In this document: positions 21,326-35,527 of the stretch, in pieces
How the letters are laid out: each line of letters opens with the position of its first letter
How positions within the stretch are numbered: the stretch's first letter is position 1
The notes under the pieces: model-generated
Databases searched by the model: none
What the model was told of the DNA's origin: nothing
What the model saw: the letters and a program-made list of their open reading frames with translations, nothing else
DNA from: Actinomycetes bacterium
GTDB taxonomy: Bacteria > Actinomycetota > Acidimicrobiia > Acidimicrobiales > RAAP-2
Assembly: GCA_021822565.1 (NCBI GenBank)
Contig: JAKAQM010000009.1
Location: 1 to 45,887, forward strand
Reading direction: 5' to 3'
Length of the DNA stretch: 45,887 nt
Made by a program: the position numbers and the translations under genes

Positions 21326-22405
21326 TCAGGAACGATCTGACGCGGTCCCGGGATCACCGGTGATCGCTTCGGTGAAGTCTGCGGCGGTCACACCAGGGCA
21401 TTCGACACCTCGGGAGAGGAAGAAGGCATCGATGACAGCCCGTACCGTGCTCGGCTCGAACGGCGCACCAACGAGCGTCTGCACGAGAACCGTGAAGCCA
21501 CTCTTCGGGATGAACGTGAAATCGCCGGACAGCTGGAGGTCGGCAATTGCGTTGTCGCGTATCGTCACCGACGACCGGATGTACCCTCCTTGCGCCTTGC
21601 GCTGGCCATGGCGAACGACCACGCCCTCGCGGATCTTGGTCGTCACGTGCTTGCGAGAGCGTGGCTCGAAGAGGACGTCGGGGGATTGGAGATGCTCGGC
21701 CAACTGCGCGGCCAGATCCTCGACTTCGGGCGGCAGCGGGCGCAGGTCGAGCGGGCCCAGCACGAGAGAGAAGAAGTGCTCCAGGGCGGCGATGACGTCT
21801 TCGGTCGAAGGCTCACGGCCGATCTCCCGCGAGATCGAGGTCACATTGTCGTCGAGCACCTGACGCAGGTGAGCCCGCAGCTTCTCGTCGGGCACTCGAA
21901 TGACCGATGCCATGCGGACGATGTCGAAGTGGCGCAGTACCGCTCCCACGAAGCAGAAGCGATCGGCGATGTCCGCTGCCCCCTGCCCAGTGATCTTGCG
22001 TCCCGCGGCCGTCACCAGATCGTTGATCGGACGGTACTGCACGTCGAGGCCGAAGTGCCGGTACGTCTCGATCACGGGTTCGGAAAGATACCGGTAGATG
22101 TCGTCGAGGATGGGTGGCAATACCGGATCTGACCTCGGCAGGACAAGGTTGTAGAAGACCTGGCCAGGTCCGAGCAGCACCGGACCTCCGCCGATCTCCC
22201 TCCTGACGACCGGAAGACCTTGACGGCGGCAGGCGTCGATGTCGACAGCTTCAGCGGTGGCGTCGAAGTAGCCGACGCTGACGAACGAGTCGGTCGGCTC
22301 GATGAGGACGAGACCGTCATGTCCGAGGCGCGCGAGTGCGTGGACGTAGGCGATCGGCAGCACACCATCGCGGGTGGACGGTCGATACAGCGCCAATCCC
22401 TTCAT
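21326..22405 (-). CDS. Lipoate-protein ligase associated with sHdr/LbpA (sLpl type)
   Basis: A 359-residue lipoate/octanoate ligase. The lipoyl-AMP site RREIGGGPVLLGPGQVFYNL is at residues 68-87, and the catalytic lysine region NDLVTAAGRKITGQGA puts Lys137 at the expected place. A C-terminal accessory-like domain (LQLSGDFTFIPKSG, VECPGVTAADF) follows, making it a single-chain ligase. From known sHdr loci, dedicated ligases load lipoyl groups onto LbpA rather than onto pyruvate dehydrogenase or GcvH. Two LbpA genes 3 kb away support this. No LipS1/LipS2-type sulfur-insertion genes are in view. It diverges from the first ArsR gene and probably shares its control region. Confidence 0.85.
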   Translation of the reverse strand: MKGLALYRPSTRDGVLPIAYVHALARLGHDGLVLIEPTDSFVSVGYFDATAEAVDIDACRRQGLPVVRREIGGGPVLLGPGQVFYNLVLPRSDPVLPPILDDIYRYLSEPVIETYRHFGLDVQYRPINDLVTAAGRKITGQGAADIADRFCFVGAVLRHFDIVRMASVIRVPDEKLRAHLRQVLDDNVTSISREIGREPSTEDVIAALEHFFSLVLGPLDLRPLPPEVEDLAAQLAEHLQSPDVLFEPRSRKHVTTKIREGVVVRHGQRKAQGGYIRSSVTIRDNAIADLQLSGDFTFIPKSGFTVLVQTLVGAPFEPSTVRAVIDAFFLSRGVECPGVTAADFTEAITGDPGTASDRS

Positions 22406-22515
22406 ATCGAGGCGGCCGCCCGCTCTCTCCCGCGTCGCTTCCGGGCGCCCGGTGAACCGCCCTCCCGTTGAGCCGCAACGCGGGTCACCATGTGCCTTCC
22501 CGAATATGCGTCCAT

Positions 22516-22536
22516 GAACATGTTCCCTTGTATGAT
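22516..22536. promoter_or_regulatory. Palindromic operator candidate plus -10 before the first sHdr-linked ArsR gene
   Basis: GAACATGTTC at 22516-22525 is a perfect 10-bp palindrome. It is followed by TATGAT at 22531-22536, which ends 6 bases before the GTG start. The palindrome would sit in the promoter spacer, a normal place for an autoregulating ArsR repressor. It lies in the shared region with the divergent ligase gene and could control both (inference). Confidence 0.5.
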
Positions 22537-22542
22537 GCGAGC

Positions 22543-22917
22543 GTGCACACCGCGAATGCCCTTGATCCCTATCTCCGTCAGGAGCTCGACGAGCTGGTCT
22601 CCGGCATCTGCAAAGCGCTGAACGACTCCAAGCGGCTGACCATCCTGTACGCCCTGCGCTCCGGTCCGCACACGGTGTCCGAGCTCTGCGAGGTGATCGA
22701 CGCCCCGCAGTCGAACACGTCCCAGCACCTCGCCATCCTCCGAGACCGCGGCCTGGTCAACACCGTACGTCAAGGCAACAACGTGATCTATTCGCTGAGA
22801 CATCCCAAGGTGATCGAAGCGGTCGACTTCCTGCGCGAGGTGATGGCCGACGAGATCGCCCGGCGGAGCGGGCTTCGGAACCGCCACGAGGAGAGCGCCC
22901 GCACCCTGTCATCGTAG
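22543..22917 (+). CDS. ArsR-family regulator, sHdr-associated (paralog 1)
   Basis: A 124-residue ArsR-family winged-helix protein. The recognition part is HTVSELCEVIDAPQSNTSQHLAILRDRGLV, then the wing RQGNNVIYSLRHPKVIEAVDFL. Two cysteines (SGICK near residue 23 and SELCEV near 49) are conserved in paralog 2; metal-binding motifs of arsenic sensors (CVCDLC) are absent. In other sHdr loci an ArsR-type repressor (sHdrR) senses sulfane sulfur through cysteines. That role here is inference, since the cysteine positions are not those usually described. The GTG at 22543 is chosen from the paralog alignment and the leaderless -10. Confidence 0.83.
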   Translation: MHTANALDPYLRQELDELVSGICKALNDSKRLTILYALRSGPHTVSELCEVIDAPQSNTSQHLAILRDRGLVNTVRQGNNVIYSLRHPKVIEAVDFLREVMADEIARRSGLRNRHEESARTLSS

Positions 22918-22943
22918 AACCCGCACCCTGCCGCCGTAGAACC
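22900..22943 (+). repeat. 22-bp tandem repeat across the stop codon of the first ArsR gene
   Basis: Two imperfect copies of a 22-base unit (CGCACCCTG...GTAGAACC) at 22900-22921 and 22922-22943. The TAG stop at 22915-22917 is repeated in the second copy, so the coding end is not changed. Confidence 0.75.
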
Positions 22944-23021
22944 GGCACGAGCCGTCGCCCCGGCGACAGCGGGAAGAACCCGCCTCACCCCTGGGCTCAC
23001 CTCATCGTCAGCCGTTGAACA

Positions 23022-23041
23022 GCTCCATGGAGCACTATGCT
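23022..23041 (+). promoter_or_regulatory. Palindromic operator candidate plus -10 before the second ArsR gene
   Basis: GCTCCATGGAGC at 23022-23033 is a perfect 12-bp palindrome; TATGCT at 23036-23041 ends 5 bases before the ATG. TTGAAC at 23015-23020 is a -35 candidate at a short 15-bp spacing. The layout repeats that of the first ArsR gene, with a CATG-centred palindrome just before a leaderless start. Confidence 0.5.
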
Positions 23042-23046
23042 CTTGG

Positions 23047-23445
23047 ATGGTGGGGATCGACCCCGCATTGCGCCACGAGCTCGACGACCTGGTCGACGCC
23101 ATCTGCAAGGGCGTCAACGATCCCAAGCGGTTGCACCTGCTCTATGCGCTGCGTGGTCAACCGCGGACCGTGACCCAGCTCTGTGCCTTGGTCGGCGCCC
23201 CACAGTCCAACGTCTCGCAGCATCTCGCCGTGCTGCGAGACCGAGGCCTCGTCGAAGCGTTGCGGGCCGGAAACAGCGTCATCTACTCCTTACGACACCC
23301 GAAGGTGCTGGAGGCGATCGACATCCTCCGGACAGTCATGGACGATGAGCTGCAACGTCGCCACGCGCGAGCCGCCGGTCGAGCGGCCGATACGCACGAC
23401 CGCAGCTCTTCGACCCTTCGTCATCCAGAGGAGCTGCCTGGCTAG
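23047..23445 (+). CDS. ArsR-family regulator, sHdr-associated (paralog 2)
   Basis: A 132-residue ArsR-family protein clearly paralogous to the preceding one: ALRHELDDLVDAICKGVNDPKRLHLLYAL, APQSNVSQHLAVLRDRGLVEAL and SVIYSLRHPKVLEAIDIL align without gaps. The same two cysteines (AICK, QLCALV) are kept. The C-terminal 35 residues differ and are Arg/Ala-rich. It points toward the sHdr operon and ends convergently to the Rieske-fusion gene. Two neighbouring paralogs could divide sensing of different sulfur states, or form heterodimers (inference). Confidence 0.83.
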   Translation: MVGIDPALRHELDDLVDAICKGVNDPKRLHLLYALRGQPRTVTQLCALVGAPQSNVSQHLAVLRDRGLVEALRAGNSVIYSLRHPKVLEAIDILRTVMDDELQRRHARAAGRAADTHDRSSSTLRHPEELPG

Positions 23446-23475
23446 GGCGGAGACCGCCGGCATGCGTCGACCGAG

Positions 23476-23495
23476 CGATCGCCTCATCGCGATCG
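23476..23495. terminator. Stem-loop between convergent ArsR and Rieske-fusion genes
   Basis: CGATCGC-CTCATC-GCGATCG forms a perfect 7-bp stem with a 6-base loop in the 59-base gap between the two convergent stops. There is no T-run, so it would be a non-classical, bidirectional terminator at best. Confidence 0.35.
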
Positions 23496-23504
23496 GGCGC
23501 CCGG

Positions 23505-24149
23505 TCAGAGCACCAGCCAGGCGCGTCCCGCCTCTTCGACGACCCGGTGCACGCGGATCCCTGCGTCGGCCGGTCCCCGCACGCGTTCTCCGGTGCTCAC
23601 GTCGAACTGGCTCCCATGGCGCGGGCACGTGAGCACGACCCCGTCGAGGGTTCCGGCCGACAGCTGGGCACCAGCGTGAGGACAGAGATCGTCGACCGCC
23701 ACCAACGACGATCCAACGCGATAGAGCGCCAGCGGTCCCGCCGGGCTGTCCTCGATCCGGGCTACGAGTCCGAGGCGCCCAGCGACGTCGGCGCTGTCGA
23801 CGAGGGGGAGACGTCGCAGCCCCGGTGCGCGCAACCGGCTCCTCGCTTGGGCGACGGCCGCTCCTCGATTCACCACGACGTCGCACCCTGCTCGTTCGGC
23901 GACCGTCCAGCGCTTCCGGTCAGGAACTGCGAGGAAGCCGACCACCAGTGCGTCTGGGAAGCGGTCGTGCCAGGCAGAGATCGTCTCGGGCGGCTGGCAG
24001 GCATCGACGACGATCACCTCCGGCCGCGTCCTGCCATTGGCGACCGCATCGGGACCGCCCCGACCGACCGCCACGAGGTCAGCGTCTCGCTCGGCCGCCA
24101 ACCGTTCCATGCCGCGCCGCACCAATGCGTCGTCGCCCACCAGGACCAT
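23505..24149 (-). CDS. Receiver-like domain fused to a Rieske [2Fe-2S] domain
   Basis: A 214-residue protein of unusual design. Residues 1-105 resemble a response-regulator receiver: acidic pair GDD near 5-7, putative phospho-acceptor Asp49 in EVIVVDAC, then VVGFLAVPDRKRWTVAERAGCDVVVNRG, where the usual lysine is not seen. Residues 115-214 are a Rieske ferredoxin: CPHAG at 156-160 and CPRHGSQFD at 175-183 give the two Cys and two His ligands, and DVSTGERVRGPAD follows as usual. It is the last gene of the sHdr-linked series, 59 bases after DsrE2. An electron carrier with a signal-responsive or protein-docking domain is a possibility; no function is established. Confidence 0.7.
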   Translation of the reverse strand: MVLVGDDALVRRGMERLAAERDADLVAVGRGGPDAVANGRTRPEVIVVDACQPPETISAWHDRFPDALVVGFLAVPDRKRWTVAERAGCDVVVNRGAAVAQARSRLRAPGLRRLPLVDSADVAGRLGLVARIEDSPAGPLALYRVGSSLVAVDDLCPHAGAQLSAGTLDGVVLTCPRHGSQFDVSTGERVRGPADAGIRVHRVVEEAGRAWLVL

Positions 24150-24208
24150 CCACCGGTCGACCACCTCCGGGCCTGATCCCCCCGTCGTGCCGTAGTGAGG
24201 CCGCCGGG

Positions 24209-24745
24209 TCAGATGAAGAGGTTGATGGACGATTCGGCAGCCATCTCGATGTAGCTTGCGGCACCGATCGGCGGTTCGATGCCCTCGATGAAGTCGTCCT
24301 TGGTGAGTCCGTAGAGCTCCATCGTCATCTGGCATGGGTAGAGCCGAACCCCGAGGTCCATCCCCATCTCCAGGAGCTCCGTCGGGCTGGCGATCTTGTG
24401 CTGCTTGGCCAAGCGCTTGATCATCCACGTGCCCATCCCGCCGAACCGCACTTTCGAGAGGCCCAGATGGTCGGTACCGCCGTGGTCGACCGCGGACTCC
24501 CCAATCTGCATCCAATTCTTCCCGGTGACCCGTTTCGTGTTCTTCTGCAGCACACGCAAGCCCCAGAAGGTGAAGAAGATGCTGGTGTCCAACCCCGATG
24601 CAGCCCCAGTGGTCGCGAGGATGAGCACGGGCCATACTCGGTCCAGGTCAGAGCTCCAGCAGACGACCGTCATGCGTTGCGGGCGGCGGTCGTCTGGCGC
24701 TGCCTGGGCTTCCGGGATCACTGCCTGCACTGGCGCATCGTCCAT
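24209..24745 (-). CDS. DsrE2-family sulfurtransferase-like protein
   Basis: A 178-residue DsrE/DsrF-superfamily protein of the DsrE2 (DrsE_2) type: MTVVCWSSDLDRVWPVLILATTGAA, then DTSIFFTFWGLRVLQKN and LGVRLYPCQMTMELYGL. Cys138 aligns with the sulfur-carrying cysteine of the family; Cys29 is an extra one. Such proteins move persulfide sulfur in the cytoplasm together with TusA and rhodanese. Unlike many DsrE2 proteins there is no obvious membrane anchor. A good AGGAG-type ribosome site precedes the ATG, and a putative own promoter lies about 90 bases upstream. Confidence 0.82.
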   Translation of the reverse strand: MDDAPVQAVIPEAQAAPDDRRPQRMTVVCWSSDLDRVWPVLILATTGAASGLDTSIFFTFWGLRVLQKNTKRVTGKNWMQIGESAVDHGGTDHLGLSKVRFGGMGTWMIKRLAKQHKIASPTELLEMGMDLGVRLYPCQMTMELYGLTKDDFIEGIEPPIGAASYIEMAAESSINLFI

Positions 24746-24835
24746 GCCGTGCCCCCCTTCTCCTCAGCCGTCAGCCGATGAGAAGCACACCTTCGGTCCA
24801 ACCCCTGAATGGCCGGCGGAACCAAGTTTCTCTTC

Positions 24836-24864
24836 ATCGTAGTACGTGGCCGAATCGAGGACAA
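24836..24864 (-). promoter_or_regulatory. Putative sigma70-type promoter for dsrE2 and the Rieske fusion
   Basis: On the minus strand TTGTCC (24864-24859) is followed after exactly 17 bp by TACGAT (24841-24836). Transcription would start about 85 bases before the dsrE2 ATG. The -35 lies inside the first unit of a 12-bp repeat, so further copies of TTGTCC lie upstream. Confidence 0.45.
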
Positions 24865-24900
24865 TGGCCAGGACAATGGCCAGGACAATGGCCAGGACAA
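24859..24900. repeat. 12-bp tandem repeat (3.5 copies) overlapping a -35 element
   Basis: GGACAATGGCCA is repeated at 24859, 24871 and 24883, with a half copy at 24895. It falls in the 199-base gap between lbpA and dsrE2. Each unit carries the -35-like TTGTCC on the minus strand. Confidence 0.9.
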
Positions 24901-24944
24901 CGCGTCGGCGCGTCGGCGCTGTCGCGGAGATGACGCACCGCCGC

Positions 24945-25400
24945 TCACTCCGCGCAGCGGAAGCAGCGGATGCCTCGTTCGTCGATGATCGAGCGGTAAC
25001 GCTCGAACGCCTCCGCTCCAGTAACCAATGCCGAACGCTCGGCAGCGAGGTTCGCCGGGCGCATGCGGATGAGCCACCCCTCTCCGTACGGGTCACGGTT
25101 GGCCACCAGGATGTCGGCGGCGAACGCTGCTTCATTGGTCTCCAGCACCTCGCCCGTGAACGGCGACGGGAACGGCCCGACCCACTTGGCGCTCTCGATG
25201 ACGGCCAGCGGCTTGCCGCGGGCCACCCGCCGACCTCGCGGCTTGAAGGAGATCTGGACCAACTTCCCCCCGAGCGACTGGGCCACGTCCGTCATGCCGA
25301 GCACCGCCTCGTCGCCCTCGAGCCGGACCCAGACGTTGCGCTCCACGTCGTAGAGGAGGTCGTCGGGGAGCACGCAACCGCCCCACACTCGCTCGCTCAT
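24945..25400 (-). CDS. lbpA2: Lipoate-binding protein LbpA, second copy
   Basis: A 151-residue GcvH-like protein. Core: LPDDLLYDVERNVWVRLEGD, VLGMTDVAQSLGGKLVQISF, then the lipoylation site AVIESAKWVGPFPSPFTGEV with Lys72, then DPYGEGWLIRMRP. In sHdr systems LbpA carries the sulfur substrate on its lipoyl arm, unlike glycine-cleavage GcvH. The pattern Glu-Ser-x-Lys-Trp-Val is shared with the upstream copy. The extra C-terminal CFRC pair (residues near the end) is absent from the first copy. It is separated from the first copy by 28 bases. Confidence 0.87.
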   Translation of the reverse strand: MSERVWGGCVLPDDLLYDVERNVWVRLEGDEAVLGMTDVAQSLGGKLVQISFKPRGRRVARGKPLAVIESAKWVGPFPSPFTGEVLETNEAAFAADILVANRDPYGEGWLIRMRPANLAAERSALVTGAEAFERYRSIIDERGIRCFRCAE

Positions 25401-25428
25401 CTCTCGCCCCGTTCTTCCCCGCCCACTC

Positions 25429-25863
25429 TCAGCCGCCCTCGCAGACGATGCCCTCCTGCTCGAGGAACCGCTGGTACGCATCGACACCTTCGGCCCCAGT
25501 GGCCAGATCGGTCGAGTCGGCCTCCCAGTCGTCCGGCCGGACACGGGCGATCCACCCCTCCCCGTACGGGTCACTGTTGAGCGTGGTCGGCGACTCGGTC
25601 ACCGCGTCGTTCACCTCGACCACTTCGCCACTCACCGGGCTCGGCACTGGACCCACCCACTTGCTGCTCTCGACGGTGGCCAGGCTCTTGCCCTTGGCGA
25701 CCCGCTTTCCCACGCTCTTGGGCGTCACGGCGACCACCGTCTTGGCCAGATGCTGCGCCACGTCGCTCAGGCCGACGGTGACCACCTCGCCGTCGTAACT
25801 CGCCCAGACGTGCTTCTCCACGAGGTAGAAGAGGTCGTCGGGGATGTTGCAGCCTCTGATCAT
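25429..25863 (-). CDS. lbpA1: Lipoate-binding protein LbpA, first copy
   Basis: A 144-residue GcvH-like lipoyl carrier. IPDDLFYLVEKHVWASYDGE and VTVGLSDVAQHLAKTVVAV form the hammerhead fold; Lys68 in ATVESSKWVGPVPSPVSGEV is the lipoylated residue; DPYGEGWIARVRP completes the core. It is similar to the second copy over its whole length but clearly diverged, so the two are an old duplication or separately selected forms. The ATG is chosen because it overlaps the stop of the zinc-finger gene (TGATG); a GTG lies one codon upstream. Confidence 0.88.
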   Translation of the reverse strand: MIRGCNIPDDLFYLVEKHVWASYDGEVVTVGLSDVAQHLAKTVVAVTPKSVGKRVAKGKSLATVESSKWVGPVPSPVSGEVVEVNDAVTESPTTLNSDPYGEGWIARVRPDDWEADSTDLATGAEGVDAYQRFLEQEGIVCEGG

Positions 25864-26162
25864 CACTGTGCCCCTTCATCGATCAGGTCACCGTGCTCGG
25901 CCAGCAGGTGGTTCACGAGCATGTCGAAGGCGACCATGCGAATCTCACGACGGAACTCCTCCAGAAATCCCGGATCACGTAGGTGCGGGTTCACCTGGTG
26001 CTCGTAGGCAGCGTGGCACACCGGACACTCGATCGCGTAGTAGCGCGCGCCCTGGCGCTCGACGAAGCGCACCTCGTCGGCGTGCACCTCCGACAGGTGC
26101 GCATGGAGTGCACGAGGCTGAGCTTTCAACGGACACCACGGACATGTCATCGCGACAATCAT
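25863..26162 (-). CDS. Small double zinc-finger-like protein of unknown function
   Basis: A 99-residue protein with two treble-Cys/His motifs. The first is CPWCPLKAQPRALHAHLSEVH (C-x2-C with two His, C2H2-like); the second, CPVCHAAYEHQVNPHLRD, again has C-x2-C with nearby His. A helical C-terminal tail (EEFRREIRMVAFDMLVNHLLAEH) follows. I do not recognise the family. It overlaps the lbpA1 start by one base and follows the EtfD-like gene after 40 bases, so it belongs to the sHdr operon. Zinc-dependent assembly factor, regulator or persulfide relay are all possible. The start (ATG 26162, or 26150) lacks a clear ribosome site. Confidence 0.65.
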   Translation of the reverse strand: MIVAMTCPWCPLKAQPRALHAHLSEVHADEVRFVERQGARYYAIECPVCHAAYEHQVNPHLRDPGFLEEFRREIRMVAFDMLVNHLLAEHGDLIDEGAQ

Positions 26163-26202
26163 GCCAATAGGAGGGCTGGAGCCCTGGCGGATCGCGGCGG
26201 GG

Positions 26203-28245
26203 TCATGCGGGCGCGGAGGCGACCGCCGCGGCCGCGTCGCGGGACCGAGACTTCGCGGTGCGGGCTTCGGCAACCAGCTGGACGAGGTCGATCACCTGAA
26301 GCCGGTCGTCGTAGCCGGTCGTCTTGGCAGCGTCCGAGTACATCGTGAAGTCTTTCGGGCACGCCACCACGAACCGGTCGACGCCCAGCGCCATCGCTTC
26401 ACGGATCCGGCTCTCGCTGGGTCGCTCGCCGGCGCCGGGCTCGTCGGCCATCCAGATCCGTCCGCCCCCTGCGCCGCAGCAGAAGGTGTTGACACCGTGG
26501 CGGGGCATCTCCACCAGCTCGCAGCCGAGCGATCGCAGCACGCGGCGTGGGGCGTCGGTGATCCGGTTGTGGCGACCGAGGTAGCACGGGTCGTGGTAGG
26601 TGACCCGCCTACCCAGCGGCTCGACCGGGATGGCCCCGGAGGCAAGCAGCTCGGCCAGCAGCTCCGAGTAGTGAAGGACCGGCTTGTCCAGGCCGAACGC
26701 CGGATACTCGTTGCGCAGCGTGTTGAAGGAATGGGGATCAGTGGTGAAGATGGTGTCGAACTGCGCGCCTGCGAAGGCTGCCATGTTGTGCTCGACCAGC
26801 ATCTGGAAGAGCCCTTCTTCCCCGACTCGGCGAACGTCGTTGCCCGCATTCCGCTCGGCTTCGTACAGCAGCCCGAAGTCGACGCCGGCGTCGTACAAGA
26901 GGCCCGCGAGCACGCGCGAGAGGTCGGCCAGCCGCTCGTCGAACGACGCGAAGTCGCCGACGAACCACAGGTAGCGCACGGGCTCTTTGCGGGCGTCCGT
27001 GGGCGTGAAGCCCAGCTGTCGGGTCCATCGCGCGCGCATACGCTCCGACTTTCCGAACGAGTTTCCCTGCACGGCGATGGCCTGGAGCGCATCCTGGAGG
27101 CTGGGTTCCATGTTCCCCTGCTCCACCTGGCTGCGACGGAGGTCGACGATGGCGTCGACGTGCTCGATGTCGACCGGGCACTGTTCGACGCAGGCACCGC
27201 ACGTGGTGCACGACCAGATCACGTCCGGGTCGATCACGTTGGGAACGAGCACCGGGGCGTCGCCGGCACTCCGGTCGCCCATGCCGCGGCGCAGCAGGGT
27301 CCCAGCGGAGGCGAACATGCCGTCACGGAGGGACATGACCAGCAGCTTCGGCGACAGCGGCTTGCCGGCGCTCCATGCCGGGCACGCCGCCTGGCACCGC
27401 CCGCACTCGGTGCACGTGACGTAGTCGAGCAGGTGCTTCCAGCTGAGGTCGTAGATGCGCTCTGCGCCGGCCGTGCCCGAGGTCACCTCGAGAGCGCCGA
27501 GTGCTCGCGGGCGCCGCGAGAAGGCCACATTGATCGGCGCGAGGAAGATGTGGAGGTGCTTCGAGTGGGTGACGAACACCAGGAACCCCATGATCGCCGC
27601 AACGTTCAGCAGGAGAAGGACTGTCTCGAGTACCGAGTTCACGCCGCGCCCCAGCGGGTGGAGGAGATCGCCGAGGCCGTGGGAGAAGAATGCCCATGAG
27701 CCGTACGGGAAGTCGCCGGTGTTCGCCTGGGCGGCCCGGTACCCGACGAGGGTGAGCATCACGACCGCGATCATGGCGAGCGTGACCCATGCGACGCCGG
27801 TATGCGAGCCGTAGAAGCGGGACCGCCGCTGACGGCGCGCCGGCGCGTCCACCAGCCGGATCACGCTGAAGGTGGCGACGGCGAGGAGCACGACGACGAT
27901 GAAGAGGTCCTCGATGAAGCCCAGCGCCGCCGAATGGCCGATACCCGGGATGGCGAACCGTTTGCTCCACAGCGCGTCGCCGTACGCCTCGACGATGGTG
28001 AAGAGCAGGATGATGAACCCCCAGAACGTCAGCGCGTGCGGGATGCCCGACTGGGGGCGCTTCAGCAGCTTGCGCTGGCCGATCACCTCGACGACCTCGG
28101 CACCGAGGCGACGGAGCGCTCTGCGCGTCCTTCCGGGGGCAGGGGCTCCGGCCCGCACCAGCAACGCCAGCCGTCCCAGGCGGGCCCCGGCCAGGGCGAG
28201 CCCTGCCGCGGTGAGGAGGGCGGCGACGACGATCCGAACCGTCAC
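26203..28245 (-). CDS. Membrane Fe-S oxidoreductase, EtfD-like (NarI-like plus HdrD-like)
   Basis: A 680-residue fusion. About five membrane segments cover residues 3-28, 67-88, 107-130, 150-170 and 202-226 (NarI/DsrM-like). Then come two [4Fe-4S] motifs: Cys278/281/284/288 (CTECGRCQAACP) and Cys346/349/352/356 (CTTCGACVEQCP). The HdrD-like region ends with CYLGRHN (Cys554), FCCGAGGG (Cys589-590) and ACPKD (Cys629), a CCG site. This is the layout of EtfD, which takes electrons from EtfBA into the quinone pool. It directly follows etfA with a GTGA overlap, supporting that partnership. It is probably the membrane exit of the sHdr system (inference). Confidence 0.85.
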   Translation of the reverse strand: MTVRIVVAALLTAAGLALAGARLGRLALLVRAGAPAPGRTRRALRRLGAEVVEVIGQRKLLKRPQSGIPHALTFWGFIILLFTIVEAYGDALWSKRFAIPGIGHSAALGFIEDLFIVVVLLAVATFSVIRLVDAPARRQRRSRFYGSHTGVAWVTLAMIAVVMLTLVGYRAAQANTGDFPYGSWAFFSHGLGDLLHPLGRGVNSVLETVLLLLNVAAIMGFLVFVTHSKHLHIFLAPINVAFSRRPRALGALEVTSGTAGAERIYDLSWKHLLDYVTCTECGRCQAACPAWSAGKPLSPKLLVMSLRDGMFASAGTLLRRGMGDRSAGDAPVLVPNVIDPDVIWSCTTCGACVEQCPVDIEHVDAIVDLRRSQVEQGNMEPSLQDALQAIAVQGNSFGKSERMRARWTRQLGFTPTDARKEPVRYLWFVGDFASFDERLADLSRVLAGLLYDAGVDFGLLYEAERNAGNDVRRVGEEGLFQMLVEHNMAAFAGAQFDTIFTTDPHSFNTLRNEYPAFGLDKPVLHYSELLAELLASGAIPVEPLGRRVTYHDPCYLGRHNRITDAPRRVLRSLGCELVEMPRHGVNTFCCGAGGGRIWMADEPGAGERPSESRIREAMALGVDRFVVACPKDFTMYSDAAKTTGYDDRLQVIDLVQLVAEARTAKSRSRDAAAAVASAPA

Positions 28246-29222
28246 TCCTGCACCCGCTTCACCAGCTCGTCGGTGAGGTCGAAGAGGTCGACGGTGGTGC
28301 CGTAGGTCGCCACGTCGAAGATGGGTGCCTTGGGATCCGTGTTGCATGCGATCACCGTCTCGGCGTGCTGCATCCCCTCCAGGTGCTCGGGAGCGCCCGA
28401 GATGCCGAGGGCCAGATAGACCTTGGGCCGTACGGTGAGGCCCGACTTGCCGACCTGCCGGGCCTTGGGTAGCCACCCTTGGTCGATGAGCGGTCGCGAG
28501 GCGGCGAGGGGGGCGCCCAGGGCGTCCGCGAGCTCCTGGACGACCTCGAGGTTCTCACGCGACCCGATCCCCCGTCCCACCGAGACCAAGAGATCCGCCG
28601 CCGTGATGTCGACGTCGCCCTTCTCGGGCTCCACCACCTGCGCGACCGAGACGCCGAGGCCGTCGAACACGCCCTCGAGGTCCAGCAGCTCGACCTGCCC
28701 GGCCACTTCGCTCCGCCCGGCCACTTCGCTCCGACCGTCCGCCGCGGGGAAGCACCCGGCGATGACGGCGCAGATCGCCCGCGGCCCGGTCAGCGCCACC
28801 TCTGCCAGCAGCTTGCCTCCGTATGCCCTGCAGGTGACCGCCAGGTCTTCGCCATCACGCCTCACGTCGACCACGTAGGAGGCCAGCGGGGCGGGCCAGT
28901 GCACGGACAATGCGGTGCTCACGTCCATGCCGACGGTGGTGGTCGACGTCAGCACCAGGCGCGGCTGCTGGCGTTCGACGACGTGCACCATCGCTCGCTC
29001 GTAGGCCTGGGCGTTGTACGTGGCGACGGCGGGATCCTCGGAGCACAGCACCACGTCTGCAACGCCGAGCTCGTGCGCCAGCGACGTTTCGCCGAGAAGG
29101 ACGGCGAGCACGCGGCCCCCTCCTCGATCGGCGAGCTCACGCGCCTTGCCGACGAGCTCGAACGTCACGTCCGAGAGTCGACCGTTCCGGTGCTCCGCGA
29201 GTACCAGCACGTCGTTGCCCAT
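28242..29222 (-). CDS. etfA: Electron transfer flavoprotein alpha subunit
   Basis: A 326-residue EtfA. N-terminal domain: VLVLAEHRNGRLSDVTFELVGKARELA. The C-terminal FAD domain has VGRGIGSRENLEVVQELADALGAPLAASRPL and VYLALGISGAPEHLEGMQ with IACNTDPKAPIF, the standard EtfA FAD motif. The protein accepts electrons in the cytoplasm and passes them on as a heterodimer with EtfB. In sHdr operons, etfAB marks the so-called type II arrangement. An 18-bp in-frame repeat (28701-28736, GRSEVA twice) sits in the interdomain linker. GGAGG lies 7 bases before the ATG. Confidence 0.9.
   Translation of the reverse strand: MGNDVLVLAEHRNGRLSDVTFELVGKARELADRGGGRVLAVLLGETSLAHELGVADVVLCSEDPAVATYNAQAYERAMVHVVERQQPRLVLTSTTTVGMDVSTALSVHWPAPLASYVVDVRRDGEDLAVTCRAYGGKLLAEVALTGPRAICAVIAGCFPAADGRSEVAGRSEVAGQVELLDLEGVFDGLGVSVAQVVEPEKGDVDITAADLLVSVGRGIGSRENLEVVQELADALGAPLAASRPLIDQGWLPKARQVGKSGLTVRPKVYLALGISGAPEHLEGMQHAETVIACNTDPKAPIFDVATYGTTVDLFDLTDELVKRVQE
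28701..28736 (-). repeat. 18-bp in-frame tandem repeat in etfA
   Basis: Two 18-base copies encode GRSEVA repeats in the EtfA linker. The frame is kept. Confidence 0.85.
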
Positions 29223-29235
29223 GACCCTGCCTCCG

Positions 29236-30009
29236 TCAGCTCCGCACCAGGCCCTTGGCCCGGAGCAGCTCCACGATCCGATCAGCGACCTCGCCGGCGC
29301 CTCCGGCCAGCATCTCGGCGTGCCCAGCGGCCTCCGGGGCGACCAGCCGCCGCAACGCGAACTGCTCCGTCCCGAGCTCGGCTGCCTGGACCTCGACCTC
29401 GGTGATCCCACCGGACTGCTGGGCCTGGCGGATCCGGCTGATCGACACGTAGCGAGGCGCCTGCCGTGCCGCTTGGACGCCGATCACGGCCGGCAGGCGC
29501 ACCTCGTCGACCACCACCGTGCCGCCGGCCAGCTCCTGCCAGACCTTGGCCATCCCGTCTTCCGCCTCCACCCGCACCGCGACCGAGATGTGGGGAACCT
29601 CGAGCTGAGCCCCCAGCAGGCCCGGGAGCTGGCCGTCGAGGTCGTCCGCCGCCTGGACACCCGTCAGCACGAGGTCGAAGGACTGCCCGGAGAGCCACGA
29701 CGCCAGGAGGGCCGCTCGGCGGTGGGAGTCGATCCAGCCGGTCAGCGCGCCGGTCAGCTTGATCGCGGCGTCGGCTCCCTTGGCCAAGGCAGCGTGCAGC
29801 GTCTGATCGACGTCCGGCTCGTCGAGGGCAACCACCACGAGCTCGGCGTCTCCGGCCTCCTTCAGGCACAGCCCCTCTTCGAGTGCCTGGTCGTCGAACT
29901 CGTTGACCACCATCTTCAAGAGCTCCCGGTCGACGTCGGTCCCGTCGGCCGTGAGCTCCAGCTCTTCGACGAGATCCGGGATCTGCTTGACGGCCACCAC
30001 GATGCGCAT
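29236..30009 (-). CDS. etfB: Electron transfer flavoprotein beta subunit
   Basis: A 257-residue EtfB: MRIVVAVKQIPD at the start, VVNEFDDQALEEGLCLKEAGD, then TGVQAADDLDGQLPGLLGAQL near residue 120 (nucleotide-binding loop), and PRYVSISRIRQAQ. It forms the heterodimer with EtfA. The nucleotide site could hold AMP, or a second FAD if the complex is bifurcating; the sequence read by eye does not settle this. The order etfB-etfA-etfD-like is compact. An AAGGGGCGA site precedes the start; a GTG one codon upstream is an alternative. Confidence 0.9.
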   Translation of the reverse strand: MRIVVAVKQIPDLVEELELTADGTDVDRELLKMVVNEFDDQALEEGLCLKEAGDAELVVVALDEPDVDQTLHAALAKGADAAIKLTGALTGWIDSHRRAALLASWLSGQSFDLVLTGVQAADDLDGQLPGLLGAQLEVPHISVAVRVEAEDGMAKVWQELAGGTVVVDEVRLPAVIGVQAARQAPRYVSISRIRQAQQSGGITEVEVQAAELGTEQFALRRLVAPEAAGHAEMLAGGAGEVADRIVELLRAKGLVRS

Positions 30010-30072
30010 CACTCGCCCCTTCGACTGGTGAACTGCCCCCTGCGATCGAACGCCCGCCGGATCCGGAGGACG

Positions 30073-31374
30073 TCACCCACCGCCGCCTCCCATCGCCTCG
30101 TCGACGAGCTCGATGATGTCGCGCACCTGCAACTGGTCGTTGCCGGTCGACTTGGCACCGTCTTCGAACCGGGACACCTCGTAGGGGCAGCACACGGCGA
30201 GCACGTCCGCACCGCTCTCCACCGCTTCGCGCACTCGGCGCTCGGACAGCCGCTCGCTCGTGTGGTTCGCCGTGAGCCCGTCGAGCCACATCCCGCCCCC
30301 TCCTCCACCGCAGCAGTAGCCGTTCTCCCGGCACCGGCCCATCTCGACCAGACGCACACCGGGAATGGCGCGTAGCAGCGTCCGCGGGGCGTCGTACTCC
30401 CCGTTGTGGCGCCCGAGGTAGCACGGGTCGTGAAAGGTGACCGTGCAGTCGAGCTCCTTGCGCCATTCGATGCGGTCGACCAGCGGCGCGAGGAGCTGGG
30501 TGTAGTGCAGCACGTCGTAGCGGTGACCCCGCTTCGGGTACTCCTTGACCAGTGCGTTGAACCCGTGCGGGTCCGGCGTCACGATCCGCTGGAACTCGTA
30601 GCGATCGAGAGTGGCGACGACGTCCTCCATGAGCGCCTCGAACAGCCCCTTCTCACCGGCGAGACGCTGGGAGTCCCCGATCGTCTTCTCCTCGGGACCC
30701 AAGATGGCGAAGTCGACGCCGAGGGCGGTCGCCACACGAGCGAACGACCGGGCCGCCTGCATGCCCCTCGGGTGGTAGCTCCAGTAGTCCTCGACGTAGA
30801 AGAGCACGTCGACCGGCCGCGGGTCCGACGCCAGGACCCGCACATCCACCCCGGCGTCCCGCGTCCACGCATGGCGCCTCCTGGGGTTCTCGCCGAGGGC
30901 GTTGCCGTACCGGAACGTCTTCTCGAAGACATCGGCCAGCTCACCCGGCACCTGTCCCTCGGCGACAGCCACCTCGCGGACGGCCGGCATGACCTTGACC
31001 ATGTCGACCTCCTTCGGGCAGACCCGCAGGCAGTTCATGCACGTCGTGCACAGCCAAAGGTCATCGGAGGTGAAGAGGTCGAGCCCGGTCTGCACCTTGC
31101 GGTGGATCTTGCGTGGCCCGTACTCGCCCACCAGGTCGACGGGGCACACCGGAACGCACTTGCCGCAGCCGTAGCACCACTCGAGCGACTCGCCGCCCTC
31201 CAGGGAGCCGATCTTCTCGAAGCCCTCGGTGGTGAAGTCCCACTCCACCCGCTGCTCGAACATTCGGTTCCACATCCCCGGGAGCTCCCACTCCCGGCCG
31301 GAGAGGGGCGACGTGACGGTGGCGTGCTCGAGCTCCACCGCAGTGGGCGGCTGCTTCCTTCCCCCGATTGGCAT
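30073..31374 (-). CDS. HdrD-like Fe-S protein (sHdrB3 type)
   Basis: A 433-residue soluble HdrCB fusion. Two [4Fe-4S] motifs near the N-terminus: Cys67/70/73/77 (CYGCGKCVPVCP) and Cys109/112/115/119 (CTTCMNCLRVCP). The C-terminal CCG site is complete: Cys318 (CYLGRH), Cys348, Cys354-355 (CCGGGGGG) and Cys395-396 (CCPYE); the N-terminal CCG half is degenerate. No membrane segment. In type II sHdr operons such a protein together with EtfAB replaces the HdrC2/HdrB2 pair. It lies between sHdrHyp and EtfB, with GGAGG before the ATG. Confidence 0.85.
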   Translation of the reverse strand: MPIGGRKQPPTAVELEHATVTSPLSGREWELPGMWNRMFEQRVEWDFTTEGFEKIGSLEGGESLEWCYGCGKCVPVCPVDLVGEYGPRKIHRKVQTGLDLFTSDDLWLCTTCMNCLRVCPKEVDMVKVMPAVREVAVAEGQVPGELADVFEKTFRYGNALGENPRRRHAWTRDAGVDVRVLASDPRPVDVLFYVEDYWSYHPRGMQAARSFARVATALGVDFAILGPEEKTIGDSQRLAGEKGLFEALMEDVVATLDRYEFQRIVTPDPHGFNALVKEYPKRGHRYDVLHYTQLLAPLVDRIEWRKELDCTVTFHDPCYLGRHNGEYDAPRTLLRAIPGVRLVEMGRCRENGYCCGGGGGGMWLDGLTANHTSERLSERRVREAVESGADVLAVCCPYEVSRFEDGAKSTGNDQLQVRDIIELVDEAMGGGGG

Positions 31375-31375
31375 C

Positions 31376-32122
31376 TCAGGCCTCCTGATGGCGAACGCCG
31401 AGCAGGGTCCGGACGAGCCCCTCGAGCCCGGGAACGATCCTGTTGAACTCCTGGGTCATGCGCATCCGCAGGACCGTGTACATGTACACGGCGTACACGC
31501 AGGCAAGGAAGACGTCGATGCCGAACGGGCCGTCCTCGAACGTCGTGAAGCCCGCAGCCCGACCGGTCTCGTTCACGAAGGCGAGTGCCCGGCCGACCCC
31601 GACATACGTCGCGCCCCGACCCTCGGCCACGAGATCGAGCTCTTCCGTCGTGACCAGCCGCAGGGCGCCCGTCTCGATCCTGGGGTCCCACATCCAGCGC
31701 GTCCACAGCCAGTAGTGCTCGGGGTGGGCGAAGTGGAGGAGCTCACCGGGAAGATCGAACCCGATCCCGGGAGCGGCCTCCAGCACCGCGTCGAACCGCT
31801 CGATGCGCTCTCCGACCGGCTCGAGGCCTCGCAACAGGCGATCGATCTCCGCCGCCAGGCGCTCGGCGCCCACCGCCTCAAGGATCATGTCAGCCTTGCG
31901 CCGGCACGAGAAGATGCGGCGGAGCACCTCGCGCAGGTCGGCGCGGCTCGCGCGGGCGGCACGGCCGTCACCCAGCACCTCGGCGAACCGGTCCGACTTT
32001 CGCCTGCAGTCGGCGCCGACCGCGGCGAGGTCGCCCTCGGTGGCACGGCCGAGGATCTCGCGCAGGAACTCCTGGGCCGCCCCGGTGTCGACCACCGGGC
32101 CCGATGGGGCACCGACCGGCAT
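31376..32122 (-). CDS. Conserved sHdr operon protein of unknown function (sHdrHyp)
   Basis: A 248-residue cytoplasmic-looking protein. The first half is helical and charged (VLRRIFSCRRKADMILEAVG); the second half has a striking aromatic segment FAHPEHYWLWTRWMWDPRIE and a late hydrophobic helix DVFLACVYAVYMYTVLRMRM. I know no enzymatic motif here. A gene of this position (after shdrA, before the second HdrB/D gene) is constant in sHdr operons and essential or structural roles have been discussed. It starts 3 bases after the shdrA stop and ends 1 base before the next gene, so it is tightly coupled. Confidence 0.7.
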   Translation of the reverse strand: MPVGAPSGPVVDTGAAQEFLREILGRATEGDLAAVGADCRRKSDRFAEVLGDGRAARASRADLREVLRRIFSCRRKADMILEAVGAERLAAEIDRLLRGLEPVGERIERFDAVLEAAPGIGFDLPGELLHFAHPEHYWLWTRWMWDPRIETGALRLVTTEELDLVAEGRGATYVGVGRALAFVNETGRAAGFTTFEDGPFGIDVFLACVYAVYMYTVLRMRMTQEFNRIVPGLEGLVRTLLGVRHQEA

Positions 32123-32125
32123 CGT

Positions 32126-33184
32126 TCAAGCCCCGACCGGCTGGTGCGAACGGGCGTGAGCCACCGCCCTGACGGCGGCCGCGGCAGCCGAGGACACCGA
32201 GTCCTCCAGGTCCGCAGGCCCTAGGGCGGCTCCACAGGCGAAGATGCCGGGCCTGGAGGTCGATACCGTGTCCAGTGGCGCGTGTGCGGCGTCGATGAAC
32301 CCGTACTTGTTCTGAGCGACGCCGAACGTCTTGGCCATGAGCCGCGTCCCGAGCGAGGGCTCCATCCCCACTGACAGCACGACGAGGTCCATGGTCACCT
32401 CCATGGGCCTGCCCATGGTGGTGTCTTCGCCGCGCACCAGGAGCTTGTCGCCTTTCTGCAGGACCTCGGTGATGATGCCCTTCACGTACTGCACGTGGTA
32501 CTGCTCCTGGGCCGGCCAATAGATCTGGTTCTCCCAGTAGCCGTACATACGCATATCGATGTAGAAGATGAACACCTTGCAGTCCGGCAGCTGCTGGCGG
32601 ACCTCGATCGCCTCCTTGGAGGCGATGCCGCAGCACACCTTGGAGCAGTACTCGTTGCCGATCTGACGGTCGCGGCTGCCGACACACTGGACGAAGCAGA
32701 TGCGCTCGGGCGGCTGGCCGTTGGAGGGGCGCACCACATGGTGGTCCTTCAGCATCGCCTCGAGGTCCTGGAGGGCGACGACGTCCGGGAATTCGTAGTA
32801 GCCGTACATCTGGGTCTCGCGTCCGGGGTCGAAGTGCTGAAAGCCCGTCGCCACGACCACCGCGTCGGCGTGCAGCGGGCCGGCACCGTCTCCGCTGAGC
32901 TCGAGGCGGAATCCATGGCCATCCGGTTCGCATGCGGCGACCTGGGACCCGAGCCGCACGTCGACCAGCTCGTTCGAGGTGACGCGGTCGATCATGCGCC
33001 CCATGGCCACCTCGGCGCTCTCCATGTTCGGGGTGAGCGCGGCGTAGTTCTCCGCGATCGGCGTGCCGCCGAGGAACGGTGCCCATTCCACCAGCGTCAC
33101 CGCGCTCCCCACGTCGGCAACGGCCGCGGCTGCTGCCAGGCCCGCCGGACCGCCACCGATCACGACCACACGCTCGCTGCCCAT
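32126..33184 (-). CDS. shdrA: sHdrA, flavin and Fe-S subunit of the sulfur-oxidising Hdr-like complex
   Basis: A 352-residue protein, short compared with methanogen HdrA, as is normal for sHdrA. FAD motif VVVIGGGPAGLAAAAAVADVG starts at residue 6. The cysteine set Cys163, Cys167, Cys180, Cys184-185 (CFVQCVGSRD, YCSKVCCGIASKEA) is the HdrA [4Fe-4S] site. FIFYIDMRMYGYWE and the C-terminal FAD motif GIFACGAALGPADLEDSVSSA follow. The protein is the electron hub of the sHdr complex in the cytoplasm. GAGAGGAAGG lies right before the ATG; a stem-loop occurs just upstream. Confidence 0.9.
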   Translation of the reverse strand: MGSERVVVIGGGPAGLAAAAAVADVGSAVTLVEWAPFLGGTPIAENYAALTPNMESAEVAMGRMIDRVTSNELVDVRLGSQVAACEPDGHGFRLELSGDGAGPLHADAVVVATGFQHFDPGRETQMYGYYEFPDVVALQDLEAMLKDHHVVRPSNGQPPERICFVQCVGSRDRQIGNEYCSKVCCGIASKEAIEVRQQLPDCKVFIFYIDMRMYGYWENQIYWPAQEQYHVQYVKGIITEVLQKGDKLLVRGEDTTMGRPMEVTMDLVVLSVGMEPSLGTRLMAKTFGVAQNKYGFIDAAHAPLDTVSTSRPGIFACGAALGPADLEDSVSSAAAAAVRAVAHARSHQPVGA

Positions 33185-33203
33185 GACCTTCCTCTCTCGA
33201 CAT

Positions 33204-33218
33204 GCCCGGGTCCCGGGC
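33204..33218. other. Perfect inverted repeat between shdrB1 and shdrA
   Basis: GCCCGGG-T-CCCGGGC, a 7-bp inverted repeat with one central base, in the 54-base gap before shdrA. In RNA it would give a short stable hairpin (loop opened by one or two pairs). It is the only sizeable intercistronic structure in the shdrC1B1A part and might tune relative expression or act as an RNA-end stabiliser (inference). Confidence 0.45.
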
Positions 33219-33238
33219 GTCCGCGTGGCACGAACGCC

Positions 33239-34426
33239 TCAGGCGTCCACGTCCTCCCAGGTGAGAAACTCGATCTCGCCTCGCTCGAGGCGCTTGACGT
33301 CTGCCTCGAACTCGGCCCACGCCGCCTCCCAGTCGATGCCCATCCGCTCCAGAAACGGCCGGTAGTCAGCCGAGTGCCAGTGCAGCTGGCACACGCGGTA
33401 CGGGTGTGCACCCATGGCGAGGGCGGCGAACTGCGCTTCCGACATCACCGGGACACCGACATTGCGGTCGTGGGCCCGGGCGGCGAACTGGCTCTTGTCG
33501 AGGGTGGTGACGCAACCGGTGTCGTGGGTGAGGACGACGTCGGGATCGGCCTCCTCCTTCATCACCTCTATCTTGCGCTGGGTGGCGAATGACCTGGTGA
33601 AGTCCCGCTGCACCAGGATGTGCCGGAAGCCGAACCCGCAGCAGTCGAACCACGTGGAGTAGGAGCGCACCTCGGCGCCAAGCGCCTCTGCCAGCCCGGT
33701 GACGACGGCCGTGCGCTGACCGCCGTAGATGTCGGGGTCGTAGATGGCATCTCCTTCGACCAGCTTGTAGTAGTGGCAGGCCGGATGCACGGTCACGGCG
33801 ATCCCGTCGAAGTTCCGAACCTGGTGGGCCGCGATCTCCTGGCGCATGGCGTAGAACCACTCGGAGTAGTGGACGATCTCCTCGGGCATCACCAGGGGCT
33901 TGCCCAGCTTCGCCAGGATGTCGCGCACCTGCTGGCGCAGCTCGGGATGGAGGAGCAGCTCCTCGCGGACCTCTTTGTAGTGCCCGTAGGAGGTTCCGCA
34001 GTGGATCAGCGGAAAGTACCCCGTCTCTCTGGCGGCGGCGAAGTTGCGCAGCGCCACCGCGGCCTGCGCCGTCGAATTGGACGTGGCGCTGGCGTAGTAG
34101 TTCCACGCCGTGCACGACGTCTGGTCTCGGGGGTCGTGGTAGTCGTAGCCGAGCTTGCGCATGACCCAGAAGATGGAGGTGGAGTAGCCGGGGATGTGAC
34201 CGCACTGCCCGCACGACTTGTGGTGCCAGAGGTGGGCTTTCGGGATCTTCTTGGTCCGCCCGTACTTGGTCGGCACCTCCACGTACGGTTCGCGAACCCG
34301 GTCGACGATCCACTCACCTTCCTCTTCGAGCCGGAACAGCTCCTCGTGGAAGTCCCCCGGCAGCCGCTCGGTGCCGCGCTCGAAGCGCTCCTTCTTCCGC
34401 AGGACCACGTCGACGGGTGCGGTCAT
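33239..34426 (-). CDS. shdrB1: sHdrB1, CCG-domain subunit of the sHdr complex
   Basis: A 395-residue protein with two cysteine clusters. N-terminal: Cys72, Cys75, Cys105, Cys143 (KSCGQCGH, TSCTAWNYYA, HCGTSYGHY). C-terminal: Cys217, Cys262-263, Cys305 (HPACHYYK, FDCCGFGFRH, DTGCVTT). This is a CCG-domain protein of the HdrB family that holds noncubane-type or related Fe-S sites and handles the sulfur substrate. The ATG overlaps the shdrC1 stop (ATGA). The aromatic-rich stretch near residues 80-112 is typical for the sHdrB1 branch. Confidence 0.88.
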   Translation of the reverse strand: MTAPVDVVLRKKERFERGTERLPGDFHEELFRLEEEGEWIVDRVREPYVEVPTKYGRTKKIPKAHLWHHKSCGQCGHIPGYSTSIFWVMRKLGYDYHDPRDQTSCTAWNYYASATSNSTAQAAVALRNFAAARETGYFPLIHCGTSYGHYKEVREELLLHPELRQQVRDILAKLGKPLVMPEEIVHYSEWFYAMRQEIAAHQVRNFDGIAVTVHPACHYYKLVEGDAIYDPDIYGGQRTAVVTGLAEALGAEVRSYSTWFDCCGFGFRHILVQRDFTRSFATQRKIEVMKEEADPDVVLTHDTGCVTTLDKSQFAARAHDRNVGVPVMSEAQFAALAMGAHPYRVCQLHWHSADYRPFLERMGIDWEAAWAEFEADVKRLERGEIEFLTWEDVDA

Positions 34427-35136
34427 GGCTCGATCCCTTCCTCCTCGAGGCGGTCTTGCATGATTTCCTCCAGGATGGCGTGCAGGCCCTCGTCGACCTC
34501 CCGGATCATCTCCAGTACGCCGCTCTCCAGCCAGATGACGTACAGCTCGATCAAGGTCCGCTCGGCCACGTCCCACCCGGTGGAGGTGGTGTGCAACGTC
34601 TCGGGCGGGAGCGCCCGTCGCCACAGTGCCAGGTTGTCGGACACGTCCTTCACCTCGGGTCCCCAGTCGGGGAAGGCGTCGGGCTGCAGCATGTCCGGGG
34701 ATACCTGCGTCCCCGTCGACATGATCTTGTAGATGATCCGCGAGTAGCCCTCCAGCGCCTCCCGAGCGGAGGCCAGGCCGTTGTTGATGGCCACCTCCCG
34801 CATGATCGTGATGAGCCCGCCCGGGTTGTTCCCCCGCGGGCACCGCACACACGAGAAGCATTGGGAACACTCCCAGATGTCCTCTTCCATCTGCTGGTAC
34901 ACCAGCGCGACGTCCTCCCGGGCGATCGCCTGGGCGATACGACGCGGGCTGAAGTCGTAGAAGCGCGCCGAGGGGCACGCGGCCACGCAGATGCCGCACT
35001 CGTAGCAGCCGTAGAGATAGTCGGGGAAGCGCAGGTCGGCCTTGACCTCGTCGAACAGCCGCGCCTTTACGTCGTGAGCGACCTCTGGGTAGCCCGCCAC
35101 GTCGTCGGACTTGTACAGCGCCGAGGTCTCGGCCAT
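34423..35136 (-). CDS. shdrC1: sHdrC1, ferredoxin-like subunit of the sHdr complex
   Basis: A 237-residue protein with two [4Fe-4S] motifs: CYECGICVAACP and CSQCFSCVRCPRGNNPGG (the second with the C-x2-C-x2-C-x2-CP spacing seen in the sHdrC1 branch). The rest is helical and forms the contact to sHdrB1. The start MAETSALYKSDD is chosen because the dsrE stop lies one base away and the longer frame (to 35163) would overlap it. It is coupled to shdrB1 by a 4-base overlap. Confidence 0.88.
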   Translation of the reverse strand: MAETSALYKSDDVAGYPEVAHDVKARLFDEVKADLRFPDYLYGCYECGICVAACPSARFYDFSPRRIAQAIAREDVALVYQQMEEDIWECSQCFSCVRCPRGNNPGGLITIMREVAINNGLASAREALEGYSRIIYKIMSTGTQVSPDMLQPDAFPDWGPEVKDVSDNLALWRRALPPETLHTTSTGWDVAERTLIELYVIWLESGVLEMIREVDEGLHAILEEIMQDRLEEEGIEP

Positions 35137-35137
35137 C

Positions 35138-35521
35138 TCAGAACGACACCACGGCGTCTGCACGCATGGCCATGTCGTTGAAGGCCGCGCCTCCGATCAT
35201 CTCCACCCCGTCGATCAGCTCGTCCATCGAGAGATCGTTCAGCTCGAGCGACGGCTGGCAGACGTACAGCCGGACGCCCAGCTCGGTGGCCTGGCGCACG
35301 AAGTACGAGAGCGGCTGACCCCGGTCACCCTTCGGGCCGATCTTGCCGATGACCTGACGCTGGAGGAGCTGGGGCCCGTACATGGTGAAGTAGATGGCCG
35401 CCTCGCACTCCATTGCCGCCGCCGACGCCGCGAGGAAGAACGGCGTCGCACAGCGCCCCGGGTCATCGGTGCCGTGCGTCTGCACATAGAGGACCTTGCT
35501 GCTGTCCTCGCTGGACCACAT
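35138..35521 (-). CDS. DsrE-family sulfurtransferase-like protein (DsrE3 type)
   Basis: A 127-residue DsrE-superfamily protein. KVLYVQTHGTDDPGRCATPFFLAASAAAM forms the N-terminal Rossmann-like unit; LGVRLYVCQPSLELNDL gives the conserved Cys88 that carries persulfide; EMIGGAAFNDMAM is the family C-terminus. DsrE3 with TusA is the usual sulfur-delivery pair at the head of sHdr operons. It lies 6 bases after tusA and 1 base before shdrC1. Confidence 0.87.
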   Translation of the reverse strand: MWSSEDSSKVLYVQTHGTDDPGRCATPFFLAASAAAMECEAAIYFTMYGPQLLQRQVIGKIGPKGDRGQPLSYFVRQATELGVRLYVCQPSLELNDLSMDELIDGVEMIGGAAFNDMAMRADAVVSF

Positions 35522-35527
35522 GGTCGC

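Follow-up and report, generated by a model that had tools for sequence, protein, structure and literature searches.

Gene content of the locus

The window analysed here, a stretch of 45,887 nucleotides from an Actinomycetes bacterium, carries at 23505–24149 on the minus strand a gene for a pseudo-receiver–Rieske protein of 214 residues, named RecRie in this work. The gene is read from 24149 down to 23505, and an in-frame GTG at 24164 offers a second possible start. These coordinates agree with the initial annotation, which had left the strand unstated. RecRie starts 59 bases past dsrE2 (24209–24745, minus strand), a sulfurtransferase-like gene lying directly upstream, in whose product Cys29 and Cys138 are kept in 27/27 aligned rows.

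Further upstream and on the same strand come two genes for GcvH-like lipoate-binding proteins, the second lbpA copy (24945–25430; lipoyl Lys in 25/25 rows) and the first (25429–25866; lipoyl Lys in 27/27 rows). The small conserved gene at 25863–26273 (minus strand) is zinc-finger-like, with Cys/His pairs in the motifs CPWC...HxxxH and CPVC...H; it matches no Pfam or NCBIfam family above cut-off and, in nearly every cassette, separates the gene for the membrane Fe-S protein from lbpA. That membrane protein, with Fe-S and CCG domains (26203–28245), is probably ETF:quinone oxidoreductase-like, a function that we infer. It is followed by etfA (28242–29225), assigned by a domain match, and by etfB (29236–30012), named from its conservation and its place beside etfA rather than from domains.

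The hdr-like genes continue on the minus strand. A domain scan recognised an hdrB2-type gene with 4Fe-4S and CCG domains (30073–31374), by content a C2–B2 fusion, an hdrA-like flavoprotein (32126–33184), an hdrC1-like 4Fe-4S protein (34423–35163) and a dsrE3-like sulfurtransferase (35138–35521). Between hdrA and hdrB2, a gene of conserved position encoding 248 residues (31376–32122) has neither a Pfam or NCBIfam match nor a clear Fe-S motif, and hdrC2 is for it a guessed label. The hdrB1-like gene of 395 codons (33239–34426) is named by its place and a CCG motif, not by domains, and the motif of the 75-residue product of 35528–35755 is taken here to be that of a tusA-like sulfur carrier.

On the other side of RecRie, domain matches identify a lipoate-protein ligase (21326–22405, minus strand) and two ArsR-type regulators on the plus strand (22468–22917 and 23047–23445), the second of them convergent with RecRie. 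Both regulators have a Cys before the recognition helix and may be related to the sHdrR/SoxR sulfane-sulfur repressors. The clustering of hdr genes, lbpA and etfBA, in the window and in its relatives, is that of an ETF-linked sHdr locus (Group III).

A Rieske ferredoxin behind a predicted receiver fold

Pfam detects only Rieske models in RecRie, with PF00355 at residues 139–198 (E = 1.6e-13; 50.8 bits against a cut-off of 20.3), and PF00355 matches 23/23 members of the family. The corresponding domain spans residues 110–214 (23505–23822, minus strand), and its ligands C156, H158, C175 and H178 are invariant in 23/23 rows, as are S180 and F182, which confirms the four-ligand Rieske domain of the initial annotation. 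The nearest solved relatives of this part are dioxygenase ferredoxins: the profile of CarAc (1vck) matches RecRie at E = 5.8e-18, and 2qpz superposes with Z 16.7 and rmsd 1.5 over 102 aligned residues. RecRie nevertheless falls outside the dioxygenase ferredoxin equivalogs, because the window protein scores far under the NCBIfam cut-offs (at best 54.3 bits against 113). Rieske proteins of the bc1 type carry extra disulfide cysteines; the alignment has none beside the RecRie ligands. The tail holds a conserved TGERxRGPAD motif. Judged from sequence and model, the C-terminal half is a Rieske [2Fe-2S] ferredoxin, predicted to bind the cluster and to transfer electrons.

For the N-terminal half (residues 1–109; 23823–24149, minus strand), the receiver model PF00072 finds no match at E = 1 in any of the 23 members, and the assignment is based on structure and profiles instead of Pfam. 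AlphaFold2, run on the full protein with the 23-row alignment, gives a mean pLDDT of 93.4 and a pTM of 0.71, with alternating strands and helices in (beta-alpha)5 order over residues 2–107, followed by the Rieske part. Residues 1–109 alone yield pLDDT 93.0 and pTM 0.86, and the (beta-alpha)5 fold is present in both predicted models. Each of the 50 Foldseek matches listed for the N-terminal model is a receiver, a response regulator or a CheY-like protein. In a second structural comparison this model aligns to 2qxy with Z 13.1 and rmsd 2.5 over 107 residues, while the whole model aligns to the receivers of TorR (1zgz; Z 13.2, rmsd 2.4, 110 aligned) and ArcA (1xhe; Z 13.0, rmsd 2.4, 109 aligned). 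Profile alignment with hhalign against 14 receivers reaches a probability of 95.4 and E = 1.7e-8 over 89 columns; 13 of these receivers come from the window's own genome, taken from 17 matches after leaving out L122, L124 and L128 (offset at contig edges) and L131 (short), and one comes from Amycolatopsis.

Residues 1–108 are thus predicted with high confidence to adopt a receiver (CheY-like) fold. AlphaFold2, Foldseek and hhalign all back the receiver-like N-terminus proposed in the initial annotation, and residues 1–105, where a non-receiver fold would have spoken against that proposal, are predicted as a receiver. A chance fusion or frame artefact is rejected because RecRie is the same single open frame in all ortholog loci read; none of them has the split gene that had been considered a possible refutation.

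An eroded phosphorylation pocket and a conserved face

The pocket positions in RecRie were set by the hhalign alignment to receivers, except that the Lys position, residue 95, lies four residues past the alignment end and was placed by ungapped extension. The protein of the window itself has the acidic pair D6 and D7, the central D49 and no Lys, just as the initial annotation had described it. Across the family, position 6 (the canonical Asp) is acidic in 7/21 rows (four D, three E) and position 7 is D in 20/21; the phospho-Asp position 49 holds D in 12/22 rows and E in 4/22, position 73 holds the Thr or Ser in 7/22, and position 95, where Lys is expected, is R in 15/22, K in one and another residue in six. 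Among the pocket and Rieske sites taken together, only D7 and the Rieske ligands are steady. The receiver half keeps the predicted fold, without a PF00072 match and without a conserved phosphorylation pocket.

Conservation in this half lies elsewhere. W81, G88 and G96 are found in 22/22 rows, and A84, E85, R86, D90 and V92 in at least 90% of them. Residues 76–97, the alpha4-beta5 stretch, form the most conserved of the 85 windows of 22 residues in the receiver, by a difference reached in 0 of 10,000 position shuffles. For this test and for the co-occurrence test, 20 rows were used, L085, L057 and L077 being left out as truncated or near-duplicate. An acid at 49 and a base at 95 occur together in 12/20 rows, are both lost in four and mixed in four, a pairing with a Fisher p of 0.037 that is weak since the rows are related. 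Because the phosphorylation pocket is not kept and the alpha4-beta5 stretch is the most conserved, the N-terminal half is read as a pseudo-receiver, more likely to serve as a docking module than as a phosphorylation switch. The Asp retained at the phospho-position in 12/22 rows counts against loss of the switch.

Distribution of the family

RecRie is a real family, with 24 distinct carriers besides the window (20 order genomes, plus two and two), all of them Actinomycetota, drawn from the order and phylum samples and a contig scan. Of the 397 genomes sampled from the order, 44 show a match at 1e-11, namely the window's own genome, 20 with full or contig-cut orthologs and 23 in which mainly the Rieske region matches. 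The phylum sample of 396 genomes gives 104 matches at 1e-15, with full RecRie in four (the window's own, G067, G619 and G429); within G429's class, one genome of 24 carries it. The contig scan returned 10 loci, of which three are orthologs, in Amycolatopsis alkalitolerans, A. acididurans and one MAG contig that, judged by length and coordinates, is the same as that of G085, and the other seven match in the Rieske region. The family spans seven families of the order, the window's f1 counted, together with Amycolatopsis and G429, and half of the 20 order carriers belong to a single family (f32).

Closer to the window, full RecRie is restricted to the window's own genome among 61 genomes (its own and 60 relatives), and none of 36 same-family genomes carries it. 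The sHdr island (21326–35755) appears gained, its flanking genes glpD, xseA and cydD matching a same-genus genome, G010. A mis-binned contig was considered when xseA appeared nearest to another family (f45), a hint for which no same-genus genome stood among the matches listed. The contig is probably native, given sequence identities to G010 of 75% for glpD, 77% for xseA and 88% for cydD. Viral or plasmid spread was rejected: the viral sequence scan found no relative, and none of 100 matching plasmid records covers 80% of the protein, the 20 plasmid matches listed being limited to the Rieske half (query residue 117 onwards).

Linkage to dsrE2 and the sHdr genes

The initial annotation had proposed to look for homologs next to lbpA or dsrE2 in other genomes, and the outcome is strongly positive. 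The alignment takes in the window, 20 order genomes and two Amycolatopsis; in 21/23 of these genomes or records, RecRie lies directly after dsrE2 on the same strand. In the remaining two, G213 and G426, it stands at a contig start, and a second contig has this cassette close to its end, with dsrE2 as the last gene. The recurring order, etfB–etfA–membrane Fe-S/CCG protein–small zinc-finger-like gene–lbpA–lbpA–dsrE2–RecRie, is present wherever the contig reaches; it is rearranged in G340 (L075), where the dsrE2–RecRie pair is intact and the other cassette genes are encoded on the opposite strand. Locus L056 (1–3669) shows a third LbpA and a lipoate ligase just before etfB, an arrangement similar in L066 and L074, and in L056 two radical-SAM-like genes, which by motif we take to be LipS-like, stand there as well.

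Leaving the window's own genome aside, a dsrE2 ortholog accompanies RecRie in 20/20 carriers of the order sample. Conversely, RecRie is present in 20 of the 23 genomes outside the window's whose dsrE2 reaches at least 65% identity, and in 0/34 further genomes whose dsrE2 match at 1e-15 is weaker. For this link the hypergeometric value, 8e-31, ignores kinship and merely restates the counts. The three exceptions, G100, G274 and G377, are dsrE2/sHdr genomes with hdrB2, and a profile search of their fetched loci gave no RecRie match; two of the three also have no second lbpA. G429 has every cassette gene up to and including dsrE2, and RecRie is found at the far side of the island, apart from dsrE2 yet 1.2 kb from tusA–dsrE3–hdr. 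The dsrE2 gene of G429 (L109, 8907–11253) is flanked on both sides by opposite-strand ArsR-type genes, with a further lbpA after. In G619, whose assembly is 84% complete, RecRie lies at a contig edge next to a lipoate ligase, with no cassette nearby; a dsrE2-like gene at 52% lies with tusA on another contig, and hdrB2 has no match above 39%. On the whole, the recurrent dsrE2, lbpA, ETF and sHdr neighbourhood supports the connection to sHdr-linked genes first drawn from the window.

Proposed role and alternatives

The sHdr system oxidises lipoate-bound sulfur to sulfite, and the electrons must be passed on. To our knowledge, the route by which they leave sHdr in cytoplasmic sulfur oxidation has yet to be settled, especially for the ETF-linked form, and RecRie, tied to dsrE2 and lbpA, is a concrete candidate carrier. 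It is likely part of the sHdr machine because it is kept beside sulfur-oxidation genes in scattered actinobacteria, and its absence from some sHdr loci marks it as accessory. We see an even chance that RecRie is a soluble accessory electron carrier of actinobacterial ETF-linked sHdr sulfur oxidation, docked by its pseudo-receiver. The pseudo-receiver would no longer act as a phosphorylation switch, and its conserved alpha4-beta5 face would dock the ferredoxin onto a pathway partner, sHdr or its ETF. The [2Fe-2S] cluster could then shuttle single electrons between the sHdr/LbpA side, where flavin and Fe-S centres would oxidise protein-bound sulfur, and the ETF/membrane Fe-S protein, which would deliver electrons to quinone. 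The pairing with dsrE2 would also permit a role in reducing DsrE2-bound sulfur species. Against a carrier role count the sHdr genomes G100, G274 and G377 without RecRie and the carrier G619 without a visible sHdr core.

The initial annotation had left the choice between a redox-linked sensor and a docking electron carrier. The second fits better and the sensor less well, because the phospho-site is not conserved, the protein lacks any DNA-binding or enzymatic output domain, and the conserved residues cluster in alpha4-beta5 and in the loops of the Rieske ligands. A sensor, in which the Rieske cluster would read the electron state of sHdr/ETF and the pseudo-receiver would relay it to a partner such as a neighbouring ArsR regulator, is unlikely in our judgement, even though receiver domains are signalling modules and ArsR genes lie convergent with or near RecRie in many loci. 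The structural matches do include the atypical receivers HP1043 (2pln) and CosR (8uvk), which work without phosphorylation, and the Rieske ferredoxin ThnA3 is reported to act on gene expression in tetralin degradation (PMC3771892). RecRie has no output domain, however, comes after enzymes and not regulators, and has no constant regulator partner, the ArsR genes being unmatched in several loci. Gating of the ferredoxin by a histidine kinase that phosphorylates D49, and so switches docking or electron transfer, is rather improbable: D6, D7 and D49 are there in the window, position 49 is Asp or Glu in most rows and its acid pairs with Arg/Lys at 95 in 12/20, but the low occupancy of position 6 and of the Thr/Ser position, the replacement of Lys by Arg and a subgroup without both acid and base speak against it. 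Nor was a kinase noticed beside RecRie, in loci mostly compared with the genes of the window only.

About equally improbable is that RecRie serves an enzyme outside the sHdr system, such as an oxygenase, and lies in the operon by chance. The nearest named Rieske models are indeed dioxygenase ferredoxin subunits, and G619 has RecRie without a visible sHdr core; yet the sHdr link holds across the seven families of the order, Amycolatopsis and G429, even after rearrangement, and no oxygenase was recognised beside RecRie, most loci having been matched against the window genes only. Least probable by far is another alpha/beta fold for the N-terminal part, for instance a piece related to KDPG aldolase, to which Pfam PF01081 weakly matches in 4/23 members (best E = 0.00042). 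The top structural matches are receivers, and the hhalign control against one aldolase sequence, the best of three loci, gives a probability of 1.0 over 9 columns as against 95.4 over 89 for receivers, so that an aldolase-like N-terminus is rejected.

Going further with the docking carrier, we suggest, still more tentatively, that a receiver stripped of its switch may have been reused as a handle plugging a Rieske ferredoxin into sHdr, a one-electron branch not described before. If true, actinobacterial sulfur oxidation gains such a branch.

Comparison with known systems

According to PMC6067878, the Group III sHdr loci of Actinobacteria and Firmicutes hold hdr-like genes, two or three lbpA and etfBA, and the locus of the window resembles them in joining hdr-like genes to lbpA genes and etfBA. 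The main text of that article has no occurrence of a Rieske protein, and RecRie extends the arrangement it gives by one gene in many loci of actinobacteria. Within the open-access papers searched, none pairs Rieske with 'lipoate-binding protein', those containing both 'receiver domain' and 'Rieske' are unrelated by title and abstract start, and 'pseudo-receiver' is absent among the matches listed. RecRie is not spanned in full by any Pfam or NCBIfam model, which upholds the earlier view that the receiver–Rieske order belongs to no named family. RecRie is made of known domain kinds, in an order found in no searched model and within a known pathway, and is likely an undescribed part of the cytoplasmic sulfur-oxidising machine.

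Sulredoxin and the archaeal soluble Rieske proteins are, like RecRie, soluble Rieske ferredoxins, and the sulredoxin model weakly matches 15/23 members; it differs in having no receiver domain, and the window protein scores 21.9 bits against a cut-off of 170. The ferredoxins of aromatic dioxygenases (CarAc, the NDO ferredoxin, HcaC) share with the C-terminal half the fold, the two-Cys two-His ligands and the lack of extra adjacent cysteines. These ferredoxins are single-domain proteins serving oxygenases, whereas RecRie has a receiver ahead of the Rieske domain, an sHdr locus and the conserved TGERxRGPAD tail. The atypical or pseudo-receivers of HP1043, CosR and the TadZ type resemble RecRie in their receiver fold with an incomplete phosphorylation site. 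In those proteins the receiver is joined to a DNA-binding or ATPase domain; in RecRie the partner is an electron-transfer domain, which makes RecRie a clear example of an electron-transfer protein with an attached receiver fold.
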